The position numbers and the translations under genes are program-made. From contig CACWHY010000030.1 of the NCBI GenBank assembly GCA_902760805.1, positions 1-47,724 on the forward strand: DNA of 47,724 nt, in the 5' to 3' direction. Below are positions 16,450 to 22,227 of this stretch, in pieces. The stretch's first letter is position 1; each line of letters starts with the position of its first letter. Source of the stretch: Ruminococcus flavefaciens (GTDB taxonomy: Bacteria; Bacillota; Clostridia; Oscillospirales; Ruminococcaceae). A model generated the notes under the pieces. It searched no databases, was not told the DNA's origin, and worked only from the letters and a program-made list of their open reading frames with translations.

Positions 16450-16860
16450 TCATTTGAAGTGCTTCTGTGACAGCTTCAGGCGGTTCATAGCACGATTGAG
16501 TGCAGCCTGAGTCTGATAGTATTCCTTTATGCTCTGCTTTTGGCGGAGCCTTTCCTCGGCACGGGCACGGGCTTCCTCCGCACGCTTTACATCGATCTCC
16601 TCCGGGAGCTCGCAGGTATCCGCAAGGATGATAGCGTGGTCAGGCATGACCTCGATGAAGCCCTCAGAGATAGCGGCATACTGCCACTTGCCGTTCACCA
16701 TGTATTTCAGCTCACCTGTAGGCAGAGCCGTAACAAGGGGCTCATGACCGGCCATTATGCCGATGAGTCCGTCGATAGCGGTGATCACAAGGTGCTCGGT
16801 CTCGCCTTCAAAGAAGACCCTGTCCGAAGCGATTATCTCAAGATGAAAGGTCTTGCTCAT
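16450..16860 (-). CDS. atpC: ATP synthase F1 epsilon subunit
   Basis: The 136-residue protein has the N-terminal beta-sandwich (TFHLEIIASDRVFFEGE..., GLIGIMAGHEPLVTALPTG) and a C-terminal helical hairpin rich in Arg/Glu/Ala (about 88-135). Epsilon sits on the central stalk with gamma, links it to the c ring, and can inhibit ATP hydrolysis through the helical hairpin. A ribosome site, AAGGAGGG, lies in the 12-base gap after atpD. It is the last gene of the atp operon. No strong T-run hairpin was found downstream, only a short GGGGCTCCCC palindrome near 16433. Confidence 0.95.
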   Translation of the reverse strand: MSKTFHLEIIASDRVFFEGETEHLVITAIDGLIGIMAGHEPLVTALPTGELKYMVNGKWQYAAISEGFIEVMPDHAIILADTCELPEEIDVKRAEEARARAEERLRQKQSIKEYYQTQAALNRAMNRLKLSQKHFK

Positions 16861-16872
16861 GAGGGACCCTCC

Positions 16873-18303
<1,431 letters not shown>

Positions 18304-19212
18304 TTATTTTTCAACACTGCTCGCACCGCTGCATACCTCAGTTATCTCCTGAGTGATCGCAGCCTGACGTGCCCGGTTGTAGAGAAGGGACAGCTCCCTG
18401 ATCATGTCCTTAGCGCTGGTGGTGGCAGCGTCCATGGCAGTCATTCTTGCGTGCTGCTCGGAGCAGAATGCCTCTACCATAGCGCCGTAGATGATGCCCT
18501 TGGCGTAGTTTGGTATGAGGTAGCTCATTACCTCCTCTGGGTTAGGCTCGAATGAGGCCTTTGGCAGCTTTTTCATGGTGCCGTCAACTGCCTTTCCGAA
18601 GTGCTTTCTCTCAAAGGGCAGCAGCCGAACTGTTCTTGGCTCAGACTGGCTGGAATTGACCATATCCGTATAGATCAGGTGTACCTCGTCAAGCTCATGG
18701 TTCTCGAACTTCTCCAAAACAAGCTCAGCGATCTCTCTGGCACGGTAAAGGGTGGGATTTTGGGTGGTATACAGGAACTCGCTGTCAACGTAGGCTTTTT
18801 TGGCTTCACGCTTGCGGTTCTGGAAGTGCATACGTCCCACCTGACCCATGATGAAGAGGTAACAGTTGTCTATATCAGGAGCCTTTTTCAGCTCCTGCTC
18901 AGTGTATTTCAGGATATTGTGGTTGTAGCTCCCGCAAAGGCCCTTATCGGCGGTAATGACGATATAGCCCCTTTTTCGCTTATCCTCGGGGATATTGTCA
19001 CGCCTGTCGAAGTAGAGCTGGCGGGTGTGGGGAGTGTGCTCAAGAACGCTCTCGATAGTTGACTGTAGCTTGTAGAAGTAGGGCTCGGTGGCCTCAAGGG
19101 ACTTCCTGGCCTTTTTCAGCTTGGACGAGCTCATCAGGTACATCGCATTTGTGATCTTGAGGATCTGCTGGATACTGGCAACACGCTCCCGGATCTCTCT
19201 TATATTAGCCAC
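18304..19212 (-). CDS. atpG: ATP synthase F1 gamma subunit
   Basis: The 302-residue rotor subunit starts with GTG behind GAGGTGATCTC. The N-terminal coiled-coil helix (MANIREIRERVASIQQILKITNAM) and the C-terminal helix with MTAMDAATTSAKDMI and LYNRARQAAITQEITEV are the paired helices that turn inside the alpha3beta3 ring. ITADKGLCGSYN marks the Rossmann-like middle domain. It is slightly longer than many bacterial gammas because of charged insertions in the middle. It lies 11 bases after the fused delta-alpha gene. Confidence 0.95.
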   Translation of the reverse strand: MANIREIRERVASIQQILKITNAMYLMSSSKLKKARKSLEATEPYFYKLQSTIESVLEHTPHTRQLYFDRRDNIPEDKRKRGYIVITADKGLCGSYNHNILKYTEQELKKAPDIDNCYLFIMGQVGRMHFQNRKREAKKAYVDSEFLYTTQNPTLYRAREIAELVLEKFENHELDEVHLIYTDMVNSSQSEPRTVRLLPFERKHFGKAVDGTMKKLPKASFEPNPEEVMSYLIPNYAKGIIYGAMVEAFCSEQHARMTAMDAATTSAKDMIRELSLLYNRARQAAITQEITEVCSGASSVEK

Positions 19213-19223
19213 GAGATCACCTC

Positions 19224-21251
19224 TTATTCCTCAAAGGCGGTGATGATCCGCTCGATGCGCTCGCCGATCTCGTCGGTGAGGACCTTCTTGCTCTCGATCT
19301 CCTCGATGAGATCCTGGCCGTAGCTGCGGACGTAGCTCATGAGCTCTGTGCGGTAGCTGCGCAGATCCTTCAGGGGGATCGTGTCGAAAAGCCCGTGCTG
19401 AGCGGCATACAGCAGGATCACCTGCTCATAATGGGGAAGCGGGTTGTACAGGGGCTGCTTGAGCAGCTCTGTGAGCATATGGCCGTGGTTGAGAAGGTCA
19501 GTAGTGGCCTGATCCAGCTCAGAGGAGAACTGTGTGAAGATCTCCATTTCCTTGAACTGAGCAAGGTCGATACGCAGGTTACCTGCGGCCTTCTTCATGG
19601 CCTTGGTCTGAGCAGCTCCTCCGACACGGGAAACTGACAGTCCGTAATTCACCGCAGGACGCAGGCCTGAGTTGAACAGCTCGCTCTCCAGGAAGATCTG
19701 ACCGTCGGTGATAGAGATAACGTTTGTGGGGATATAGGCTGAGATGTCGCCGGCAAGGGTCTCGATGATAGGCAGAGCCGTCAGAGAGCCGCCGCCGTGC
19801 TCCTCATCCAGACGGCTGGAGCGCTCCAGCAGACGGGAGTGGAGGTAGAAGACGTCGCCGGGGTAGGCCTCACGTCCCGGAGGACGGTGGAGCAGAAGGG
19901 ACATGGCTCGGTAAGCCACAGCGTGCTTTGAAAGATCATCGTAAACGATCAGCACGTCCCTGCCCTTTGACATGAAGTATTCAGCCATAGCCGTTCCCGA
20001 ATAGGGAGCGATATACTGGAAGGGCGCAGGCTCGCTGGCAGAAGCAGAAACTACCACCGTGTAGTCCATAGCGCCGTATTTTTTGAGGGTGTTCACTACC
20101 TGCGCAACGGTAGAGGACTTCTGTCCGATAGCGACATAAACGCAGATAACGTCCTGACCCTTCTGGTTGATGATAGTATCGACTGCGATAGAGGTCTTAC
20201 CGGTCTGGCGGTCGCCGATGATCAGCTCACGCTGTCCACGGCCGATAGGGAACATTGAGTCGATAGCCAGGATACCTGTCTGAAGAGGAACGTTTACAGG
20301 CTGACGCTCGATAACTCCGGGAGCCTCACGCTCGATAGGGAAGTAGTCCTCGGCATTGATCTGGCCAAGGCCGTCTATAGGCGAGCCAAGAGCGTCCACA
20401 ACTCTGCCAAGGAGCTCATCGCTGACGCCGACGCCGGCACGCTTGCCTGTGCGGATAACGGAAGAGCCCTCTGTGAGGCCGTGGTCGTCGCCAAGGAGGA
20501 CTACGCCGATGCTGCGCTCCTCCAAATTCTGGACGATGCCACGAACGCCGGTCTCGAACTCTACCAGCTCGCCGTACATAACGCCGCTCATACCGTAAAC
20601 GCTGGCGATACCGTCACCGATACGGGTAATGAAGCCTGTCTCAGTTGCTCCGGACTTCACGGTGAAGTCCTTGACCTCGGTCTTGAGGACTGAGATGATG
20701 TCGCCGGAGCTTACCTCCTCATCCTCCACAGCCTCAGCCACCTCAGCGGCACGGCTCTTGAGGTTTTCACGGATCATGCGGAGACTTGTGCGATAGCTGC
20801 GGTCGTACTCCACATCGCCGGCATTCAGGATAAATCCGCCCAGGATCTCAGGATCGTAGCGGTATTCGATGTCAACGTCCTCCTTGACGAAGCGGTCCAT
20901 GATGAACTTCTTCAGGTCGGCCTGCTGAGAGTCGGTAAGGGGCGTAACATAGCGGACTACAGCCTTTATGCTGCCCTGCTTGTCGATGAGCACCTCGGAG
21001 TATTCCTCCAGGATCTCGCCGATGTTCTGGATACTGCCGCTTCTGACAGCGGTCATGAGCACTCGCTCCATAGAAGTGGGGAAGAGCCTCTTGATGATCC
21101 CACGCTTCTCGTCATGAGTAACAAGGGGATTTGAAAGAGTCTCGGTAACGTCTGGGCAGGCAGTGATGACGGCCTTTGCGGTATCGTTGTCCTCCTGAGA
21201 GATCTCCAGGCGGATCAGCTCCTTGAGGAGCTCCTTCTCGGTCTCTTTCAC
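19224..21251 (-). CDS. atpHA: Fused ATP synthase delta-alpha subunit (AtpH::AtpA)
   Basis: One 675-residue open frame holds two subunits. Residues about 1-168 match delta: [19 protein letters not shown], then the C-terminal [20 protein letters not shown] signature. Residues about 183-675 are a complete alpha subunit: [17 protein letters not shown], Walker A GDRQTGKT at 346-353, [20 protein letters not shown] and the alpha C-terminal domain. Delta normally joins F1 to the b stalk as one copy per three alphas. The link (about 169-182) is Glu/Ala-rich with no Met or stop codon. Delta lacks the usual N-terminal YAxALF helix and is about ten residues short. The start is GTG, overlapping the atpF stop as GTGA, with GAGGAGGT nine bases before it. 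No other atpH or atpA is in the operon. Confidence 0.93.
20709..20720 (-). promoter_or_regulatory. Shine-Dalgarno-like site at the delta-alpha junction
   Basis: Inside the fused gene, codons 178-180 read GAG GAG GTA, giving GAGGAGGT on the mRNA exactly where delta ends and alpha begins. No ATG, GTG or TTG follows in frame at normal spacing; the nearest candidates are two ATC codons (I185, I186). It may be a remnant of an old atpA ribosome site or chance Glu codon use. Confidence 0.35.
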
Positions 21252-21739
21252 TGCTCATCGACCTCCTCTTCTGCGAGGAACTGGTCGACCAGCTTTCTGT
21301 TCTTCTCGTCGTCGAGGTTTGCACCAACGACCTTAGAAGCGGCCTCGATAGCCAGATCTGCGATCTGGGTCTGAGCCTGCTGGAGAACTCTTCTGCGCTC
21401 GTTCTCGATAGTTTTGCTTGCGGCGCTGACGATCTCATCGGCCTCCTCCTGAGACCTTCTGATGATAGCAGCACGCTCGGACTCGGCCTGATCATGCGCC
21501 TTAGTGATGATACGGCCGGCCTCTTCCTTGGCCTCGCTGATAGAGTCAGAATACTGTGCTCTCAGCTCCTCGGCCTCTTCTCTGGCCTTTTTAGCCTCGT
21601 CGATATCGTTCTGGACGGCCTGAGTCCTGTCGTCCATCATTTTGCTGATCGGTTTGAAAAGGAATATCCTCAGCAGCACGAACAGTATGATAACGTTGGC
21701 AACTGCCTCGACGATGCTCCAGAATTCAAATTTTAGCAT
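21248..21739 (-). CDS. atpF: ATP synthase Fo b subunit
   Basis: The 163-residue protein has one N-terminal membrane helix (about 8-28, [21 protein letters not shown]) followed by a long, highly charged Ala/Glu/Arg coiled coil to the end. This is the form of the peripheral-stalk b subunit, which acts as a dimer. Its C-terminus normally binds the C-terminal domain of delta. Here delta is fused to alpha, so this is the subunit whose binding partner is changed. The AAGGAGGG ribosome site is good. It overlaps the fusion gene by four bases. Length and composition are ordinary. Confidence 0.95.
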
Positions 21740-21772: not shown

Positions 21773-21967
21773 TCACATCTTGCCGATAATAAGGAGTGCG
21801 ATAACAAATCCGTAAATAGCCGTAGCCTCTGCCAGAGCACAGCCCAGCAGGAGAGCTGTTCTGATGTCGCCCTTTGCCTCAGGCTGACGGGCGATGGACT
21901 CTGTTGCCTTTGCAGCACCTGCGCCTGTAAGAACAGCAATCGCTGCACCTAATGCTATCATTCCCAT
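21773..21967 (-). CDS. atpE: ATP synthase c subunit, copy 2, with 24-bp in-frame deletion
   Basis: The frame is open for 64 residues, against 72 for the intact form. Compared with copy 1, 24 bases are missing at about 21914/21915. This removes the eight residues GVGIGIAT from the glycine-rich first helix (GAGA-AKATES remains). The second helix is intact, with the ion-binding Glu in CALAEATAIYGF. A c subunit forms a two-helix hairpin in the rotor ring, so loss of two helical turns of the packing motif should be damaging. A GGAGGT ribosome site precedes the ATG. The sequence is nearly identical to copy 1, with only synonymous differences outside the lesions. Misassembly is the leading explanation. 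Confidence 0.85.
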   Translation of the reverse strand: MGMIALGAAIAVLTGAGAAKATESIARQPEAKGDIRTALLLGCALAEATAIYGFVIALLIIGKM

Positions 21968-22136
21968 AGTTTTATACCTCCAAGTGTTTGTCTGTTACAT
22001 CTTACCGATGATGAGAAGTGCGATAACGAATCCGTAGATAGCCGTAGCCTCTGCCAGAGCACAGCCCAGCAGGAGAGCTGTTCTGATGTCGCCCTTTGCC
22101 TCAGGCTGACGGGCGATGGACTCTGTTGCCTTTGCA
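21816..22136. repeat. Tandem atpE duplication with a 99-bp identical core
   Basis: Positions 21816-21914 and 22038-22136 are identical over 99 bases. They lie within two copies of atpE that otherwise differ at about ten third-codon positions. Both lesions (14-bp duplication, 24-bp deletion) begin at the same TTTGCA edge of the identical core. The ribosome-site region is also repeated. Confidence 0.9.
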
Positions 22137-22227
22137 CTGTTGCCTTTGCAGTTGCGATACCGATACCCACACCTGCACCTGCGCCTGTAAGAACGGCGAT
22201 AGCCGCACCTAATGCTATCATTCCCAT
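21995..22227 (-). pseudogene. atpE: ATP synthase c subunit, copy 1, frameshifted by a 14-bp tandem duplication
   Basis: The gene starts normally (MGMIALGAAIAVLTGAGAG) behind GGAGGT. A perfect 14-base tandem repeat (22123-22136 and 22137-22150) after codon 31 then shifts the frame, and translation continues as unrelated sequence. Removing one repeat unit restores a 72-residue c subunit ending IIGKM with a TAA at 21995-21997, identical in protein sequence to an intact copy 2. All substitutions between the copies outside the lesions are synonymous, which says both were under selection. Either this is a real recent mutation or, more likely, an assembly error within the tandem repeat. Confidence 0.85.

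Follow-up and report, generated by a model that had tools for sequence, protein, structure and literature searches.

A delta subunit and an alpha subunit of the F-type ATP synthase are encoded as one protein in the window (by which we mean the whole stretch of 47,724 nucleotides that was analyzed). Within a single reading frame, a true two-domain delta subunit is joined through a short linker to a complete alpha subunit, and this fusion is the sole delta and the sole F-type alpha found in the genome. The cell thus appears to have one F-type ATP synthase, and with moderate confidence, we interpret the fusion as its natural delta-alpha subunit, made as one chain and present in three copies per F1 head. 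Found in most of the genus, the fusion would equip each head with three stalk-docking modules.

The fusion gene and its operon

The frame of 675 codons (19224 to 21251, minus strand) is unbroken; it starts with a GTG at 21251, which overlaps the atpF stop, has no internal stop, and ends with TAA at 19226 to 19224. The ribosome-binding site AGAGGAGGT lies upstream of the GTG at 21251 (position counted along the sequence). The operon order is a, c (two damaged copies), b, delta-alpha, gamma, beta, epsilon, and the features are as follows; the docking role of the delta C-domain is taken from Ueno et al. 2025 (PMC12229609).

22248 to 22988, minus strand: atpB, a subunit; the sole PF00119 match in the genome (profile search)
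21773 to 22227, minus strand: two tandem atpE (c subunit) copies, both damaged (sequence, relatives)
21248 to 21739, minus strand: atpF, b subunit, its stop overlapping the fusion GTG (in relatives, a profile built on this gene hits the one preceding the fusion)
21262 to 21267, minus strand: Shine-Dalgarno AGGAGG of the fusion gene, within the end of atpF (upstream sequence)
19224 to 21251, minus strand: atpH-atpA fusion gene, 675 amino acids, GTG start, TAA stop (frame, profiles, genus genomes)
20979 to 21251, minus strand: delta N-domain, residues 1 to 91, six predicted helices (AlphaFold2; OSCP profile from position 23)
20730 to 20978, minus strand: delta C-domain, residues 92 to 174, the b2-docking module (AlphaFold2; aligns with the start of 9jc1_I)
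20709 to 20729, minus strand: linker, residues 175 to 181 (AlphaFold2)
20655 to 20708, minus strand: alpha N-terminal helix, residues 182 to 199 (AlphaFold2; alignment A1)
19227 to 20708, minus strand: complete F1 alpha, residues 182 to 675 (TIGR00962)
18304 to 19212, minus strand: atpG, gamma subunit (named by order and relatives)
16873 to 18270, minus strand: atpD, beta subunit (PF00006 match, order)
16450 to 16860, minus strand: atpC, epsilon subunit (named by order and relatives)

Both families score above their cut-offs in this protein, bearing out the single stop-free delta-alpha frame proposed in a first-pass annotation of the window. The Pfam OSCP family (PF00213) matches residues 19 to 164 with 89.5 bits (cut-off, 22.3; profile positions 23 to 172 of 172), and three ATP-synt_ab domains (Pfam; residues 205 to 269, 326 to 541, and 548 to 673) each exceed their curated cut-off. 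The NCBIfam atpA model TIGR00962, matched at full length over residues 182 to 674 with 766.4 bits (cut-off, 484.45; positions 4 to 498 of 503), identifies an F-type alpha equivalog, and the N-ATPase (alternate F1F0) model TIGR03324 stays below its cut-off (627.8 versus 750.5 bits). An AlphaFold2 model built on 54 aligned fusions, of moderate confidence (mean pLDDT, 74.8), predicts six N-domain helices at residues 3 to 91 (block pLDDT, 74 to 87), the delta C-domain at 94 to 174 (50 to 78), a low-confidence linker at 175 to 181 (pLDDT of <50 at residues 176 to 180), the alpha N-terminal helix at 182 to 199, and then alpha. The first part is thus identified as delta both by the OSCP score and by the prediction of both domains, and the limits given earlier for the two parts (1 to 168 and 183 to 675), which came with no strand named, prove right within a few residues by Pfam, NCBIfam, and AlphaFold2. 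Loss of delta helix 1, as the OSCP profile start at position 23 might suggest, was rejected: the first predicted helix spans residues 3 to 14, and free Lachnospiraceae deltas are about equally short at the N terminus.

Profile searches of the window's genome (96.5% complete) returned one PF00213 match, and thus no second delta, and four PF00006 matches, namely, the fusion alpha, the beta gene, and a pair on contig 1, and thus no second F-type alpha. The contig 1 pair (148899 to 151081; frames of 590 and 462 codons) represents a second rotary ATPase and, judged by frame length, would be the V/A-type A and B subunits. In the operon itself, the first atpE copy is frameshifted via a short duplicated stretch and the second is without an internal in-frame segment. 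This damage probably stems from misassembly of a repeat, because the relatives L066 and L150 keep an intact tandem atpE pair; some other genus members also have two atpE genes.

Distribution, architectures, and evolution

A junction profile from alignment A1 was used to search genomes of the genus, order, and phylum, in line with the architecture search that the first-pass annotation had called for. It matches 120 of 125 genus genomes; the five without a match are 64 to 82% complete. An uninterrupted delta-alpha frame is present in 116 of the 125, the nearest relatives included, with frames of at least 670 amino acids in 113 of these 116 (those in G018, G033, and G025 are shorter), and the OSCP profile gives a similar genus distribution. 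The nearest named relative protein, from the Ruminococcus metagenome-assembled genome (MAG) L066, is 95% identical, and L150 has the same protein as L066. Close relatives with separate genes, or a second free delta and alpha, had been named beforehand as evidence that would speak against the fusion. Neither the PF00213 nor the PF00006 search found either in the window's own genome; within the genus, four genomes (G061, G089, G102, and G110) lack a fused copy and have separate delta and alpha genes with a stop between them, and a second F-type operon with separate delta and alpha accompanies the fusion in 11 of the 116 (G029, G038, G041, G044, G045, G056, G057, G060, G068, G077, and G086). Those second-operon alphas that were included in the alpha tree belong to other lineages, and mixed complexes are conceivable in these genomes. 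A 758-amino-acid OSCP match on contig 19 of G060 was dismissed as a further fusion, as it has no alpha match and a weak delta score.

At the level of the order, A1 finds a match of some form in 207 of 394 genomes, and at least 68 of the 394 have an unbroken frame spanning the delta C-domain and alpha; the matches listed comprise 53 frames of 579 to 706 amino acids and 16 of 736 to 784, one genome having both. At least 18 of 398 genomes in the phylum sample have an unbroken delta(C)-alpha frame. All eight phylum loci examined are C-domain-only fusions in the order a, c, b, delta-alpha, gamma, and three further loci (L200 to L202) comprise one full fusion and two C-domain-only fusions. The OSCP profile matches 282 of 396 genomes in the family sample, and all deltas among the matches listed are free (frames of about 175 to 217 amino acids); since this listing is ordered by score and fusions score lower, it says little on fusions in the family.

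Three architectures can be distinguished. Full-length delta-alpha fusions (about 665 to 706 amino acids) occur in the window's genus and in several Lachnospiraceae, with records titled Lachnospira, Pseudobutyrivibrio, Agathobacter ruminis, Oribacterium parvum, and strain GAM79, among others. Fusions of only the delta C-domain to alpha (about 580 to 660 amino acids) are found in Butyrivibrio, Shuttleworthella, Absicoccus, and others, where the fusion directly follows b with no N-domain gene in between (operon rows L105 onward). The third type, a b'-delta(C)-alpha triple fusion of 736 to 784 amino acids found in the same taxonomic order as the window's genus, has an N-terminal hydrophobic helix and a coiled region, then the C-terminal half of OSCP, then alpha, with a separate b gene upstream. 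Its N terminus matches ATP-synt_B in five of five proteins at an E value of <1e-4, four of them above the curated cut-off. Judged by frame length, at least 16 of the 394 order genomes carry it. Nine loci with frames of 739 to 784 amino acids are of this type (L184 to L191 and L195, from genomes G858, G667, G597, G852, G599, G819, G623, G531, and G774); L186 to L189 and L195 were moved here from the C-domain class because, starting at the membrane segment, they can be aligned with L184, L185, L190, and L191. An AlphaFold2 model of one such protein, built on nine sequences (mean pLDDT, 64.6), predicts two long b-like helices (3 to 53 and 57 to 129), the C-domain at 168 to 241 (blocks with pLDDT of 78 to 90; last helix, 63), and then alpha.

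Thirteen genomes carrying a C-domain-only or a triple fusion were searched for further OSCP matches. Ten, including that of Shuttleworthella satelles DSM 14600 (C-domain-only), returned none, and a free delta lies elsewhere in G852 and in two Butyrivibrio genomes, among them the C-domain-only Butyrivibrio hungatei DSM 14810. The OSCP match in G872 and G875, both among the 10, extends back across a stop into the b gene frame, which we took for chance. Carriers of fusions include, by record title, culture-collection strains such as Butyrivibrio hungatei DSM 14810, Pseudobutyrivibrio xylanivorans DSM 14809, and Shuttleworthella satelles DSM 14600, as well as ATCC 27753. Two further frames were noted in passing. 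One, in L198 (2504 to 4291, reverse strand), passes from a gamma match to one of the alpha/beta type, which reaches the end of the contig; seen in a single genome, it may reflect either a frameshift or a gamma-beta fusion. The other, a 349-codon frame in L211 (G1178) with delta at its end, overlaps the b gene and could be a b-delta link or a delta with a long N-terminal extension.

A fast alpha tree of 181 rows and a careful tree of 80 hand-picked rows from it were built. The careful tree omits several long-branch rows (among them L193, L194, L168, L182, and L183) and most near-copies; both exclude the window copies L001 and L163, the truncated L196, L137 (a fusion cut by the contig end), L080 and L100 (second frames of their loci, beta-like by place), alphas of <430 amino acids, and identical alphas. 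The genus fusions form one clade, whose partners on the tree are free alphas from Anaerovorax and from another Clostridia MAG, not those of its own family; the triple fusions also form one clade, and the full fusion of Candidatus Onthocola (L082) is nested in a free-gene group of Mediterraneibacter and kin. Between fused and free states, five changes are needed on either tree, and starred branches force four of them. The full and C-domain-only classes are intermingled: they require 6 and 9 changes on the careful tree, of which 6 and 8 are forced, and 8 and 9 on the fast tree, of which 4 and 6 are forced; on the careful tree, the C-domain-only fusions are scattered among the full ones with six class changes forced by starred branches. 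Change counts alone do not separate gain from loss, and the simplest story suggested by these trees would be repeated fusion with repeated loss of the N-domain after fusion.

The divergence of the delta domains relative to alpha was compared between 51 of the 58 full fusions (L001, L163, L021, and identical deltas were left out) and the 68 of 72 free rows with a usable delta; the pairs compared are not independent. The N-domain diverges in fusions much as in free deltas (4.70 versus 4.86 at alpha identities of 0.8 to 0.9 and 6.43 versus 7.03 at 0.9 to 1.0), and the C-domain less (1.94 versus 4.54 at 0.8 to 0.9). The ratio of N- to C-domain divergence is 2.49 in genus fusions (resampling, 2.24 to 2.81; 29 rows picked by alpha identity), 1.35 in other full fusions (1.24 to 1.48; 22 rows), 1.02 in free deltas (0.99 to 1.07; 68 rows), and 1.27 in 10 free deltas from second operons in the genus. 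A genus set picked by C-domain identity (28 rows, biased) gave 2.62 and the same outcome. The view of the N-domain as a decaying remnant was rejected because its pace equals that of free deltas; it is the C-domain that has slowed. The tight C-domain in the genus appears to be a feature of the fused state and would suit a module permanently touching alpha. In the window, the constraint on the N-domain would count against a simple three-stalk reading.

One chain or two, one stalk or three

The first-pass annotation had listed three ways in which such an enzyme could work, by tolerating three deltas, cutting the linker, or starting alpha separately, and this is the right set. In-frame start codons near the alpha start were counted on distinct rows when preceded by a Shine-Dalgarno sequence of at least five or at least four matching bases. 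At five or more bases, 51 of 68 free alphas have one, compared with 3 of 53 full fusions, 3 of 57 C-domain-only fusions, and 2 of 9 triple fusions; at four or more, the numbers are 67 of 68 versus 14 of 53, 14 of 57, and 2 of 9, respectively. On the stricter count, a conserved internal alpha start was rejected, which makes the fused chain the probable gene product. The window and L066, two of the three full rows, share a GTG at codon 175 (the first codon of the linker) with an SD-like GAGGTG 11 bases upstream. It is the sole internal start candidate of such strength in the window and may be a species-private alpha start.

A conventional alpha3 delta1 enzyme made from the one gene, through a posttranslational cut or an internal alpha start, appears improbable to us. 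The candidate at codon 175 would allow it in the window and L066, the weaker four-base motif precedes a start in 14 of 53 full fusions, and the linker is among the lowest-confidence stretches of the AlphaFold2 model; set against this are the rarity of the stronger motif in fusions compared with free alphas and the variability of the linkers, which differ in length and sequence and, by eye, share no motif in A1. An assembly or sequencing artefact has a negligible chance: the adjoining tandem atpE copies do look damaged in the same assembly, but the unbroken fusion in 116 of 125 genus genomes and in named strains of other genera excludes it.

Under the favored interpretation, a delta-alpha subunit in three copies, the chain would be made whole and remain uncut, and three fused chains would enter each F1 head and bring three deltas, so that each alpha bears its own tethered b2-docking C-domain and delta N-domain. 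One delta would be seated as usual and the other two would be idle in most complexes, which would most often have one stalk. The tether would render the N-domain dispensable, and relatives without it would arrive at a three-site (delta-C)-alpha design. A single canonical stalk is favored because the N-domain is retained and normally constrained, and we give it an even chance; since relatives without the N-domain exist, two or three stalks in a good share of complexes are a lesser but real prospect.

How a head with several docking modules can behave is illustrated by the work of Ueno et al. 2025, who removed the N-domain of the PS3 delta and joined its C-domain to alpha (PMC12229609). According to that paper, the engineered enzyme has up to three b2 stalks and up to three a subunits, with an H+/ATP ratio of 5.8 versus 3.0; before it, all known ATP synthases had a single a subunit, set by the single stalk. 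The first-pass annotation's statement that a single delta can bind b2 is therefore no rule. Its account of the N-domain as binding the N-terminal helix of one alpha also differs from the description of Ueno et al., in which delta touches one alpha through its C-region and the remaining two through its N-region, the N-domain sitting on the pseudo-threefold axis and limiting stalks to one (PMC12229609).

A natural multistalk enzyme, in which the three C-domains dock b2 pairs, each with an a subunit, and H+/ATP is raised two- to threefold, is a reading that we hold to be possible, short of probable. The engineered chain is its model and 9jc1_I the best match to the window junction; the C-domain is unusually constrained in the genus, C-domain-only relatives are dispersed over the alpha tree, and in the order there are b'-delta(C)-alpha proteins with a membrane segment, of which three alphas would bring three anchored stalks unless cut. 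These points are countered by the window's retention of the N-domain that Ueno et al. argue to be limiting, by the normal rate, relative to alpha, at which window-type N-domains evolve, and by the engineered particles themselves, of which 15, 51, 26, and 8% have zero, one, two, and three stalks, respectively (PMC12229609). The triple fusions may be the strongest sign that natural multistalk enzymes exist, because three uncut alphas would bring three membrane anchors.

If the multistalk reading is true, the enzyme would work at low proton-motive force or pump more ions per ATP, the N-domain would have been discarded several times in relatives, and three stalks would have been built into the membrane-anchored b'-delta-alpha lineage; H+/ATP would exceed 5, breaking the one-stator-stalk rule for F-ATPases. 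That gut Clostridia carry such enzymes, with the full-length fusion of the genus already having two or three b2 stalks and a subunits, is a tentative proposal. The relatives look like steps, from free delta through full fusion and C-domain fusion to b'-delta-alpha fusion, and the series lets one test directly whether nature sets H+/ATP by stalk number.

Comparison with known fusions and subunits

The first-pass annotation, which stands in part, had taken the delta-alpha fusion to be undescribed. Fusion as such is already described: besides the engineered protein, Ueno et al. mention natural N-domain-less fusions from Acidaminococcus fermentans and two UniProt entries (PMC12229609), and the window's protein differs from these in keeping the N-domain. 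Searches of the open-licence PMC literature turned up no description of a delta-alpha fusion of full length or of a b-delta-alpha fusion. Fusions of b and delta in Gordonia and Mycobacterium, and Clostridia units without delta, are listed in PMC5709465; we suspect that some of these delta-less units hide fusions, and annotation that looks for a separate delta may be led by fusions to report delta-less Clostridia.

Among solved structures, the best relative of the window's delta part is the Bacillus PS3 delta (6n2y chain I), of the same family; it is a free subunit with one copy per enzyme, unlike the window's. Closer in design is the engineered PS3 (delta-deltaN)-alpha (PDB 9jc1), in which the delta C-domain sits on the alpha N terminus as in the window. 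Over the window junction (residues 93 to 258), no sequence matches better than its chain 9jc1_I (81.9 bits, the next at 62.9), which is also the best PDB fold match, a score that is mostly alpha, with plain alphas close behind. The window likewise encodes the C-domain and alpha in one chain, but its fusion is natural and keeps the N-domain with six predicted helices at residues 3 to 91. The fusion of Acidaminococcus fermentans joins the same two subunits naturally, as in the window; according to PMC12229609, it is without the N-domain, unlike the window's, and the C-domain-only fusions (e.g., L107, L113, L123, and L218 to L225), likened by description, resemble this kind. In the mycobacterial b-delta protein (PDB 7jg5 chain d), which weakly matches the window delta, delta is also joined to a neighbor that it binds, but that partner is b and alpha is separate; in the window, the partner is alpha, and atpF is a separate gene that ends at 21248. 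The b'-delta(C)-alpha triple fusion unites the b-delta and delta-alpha designs in one chain.
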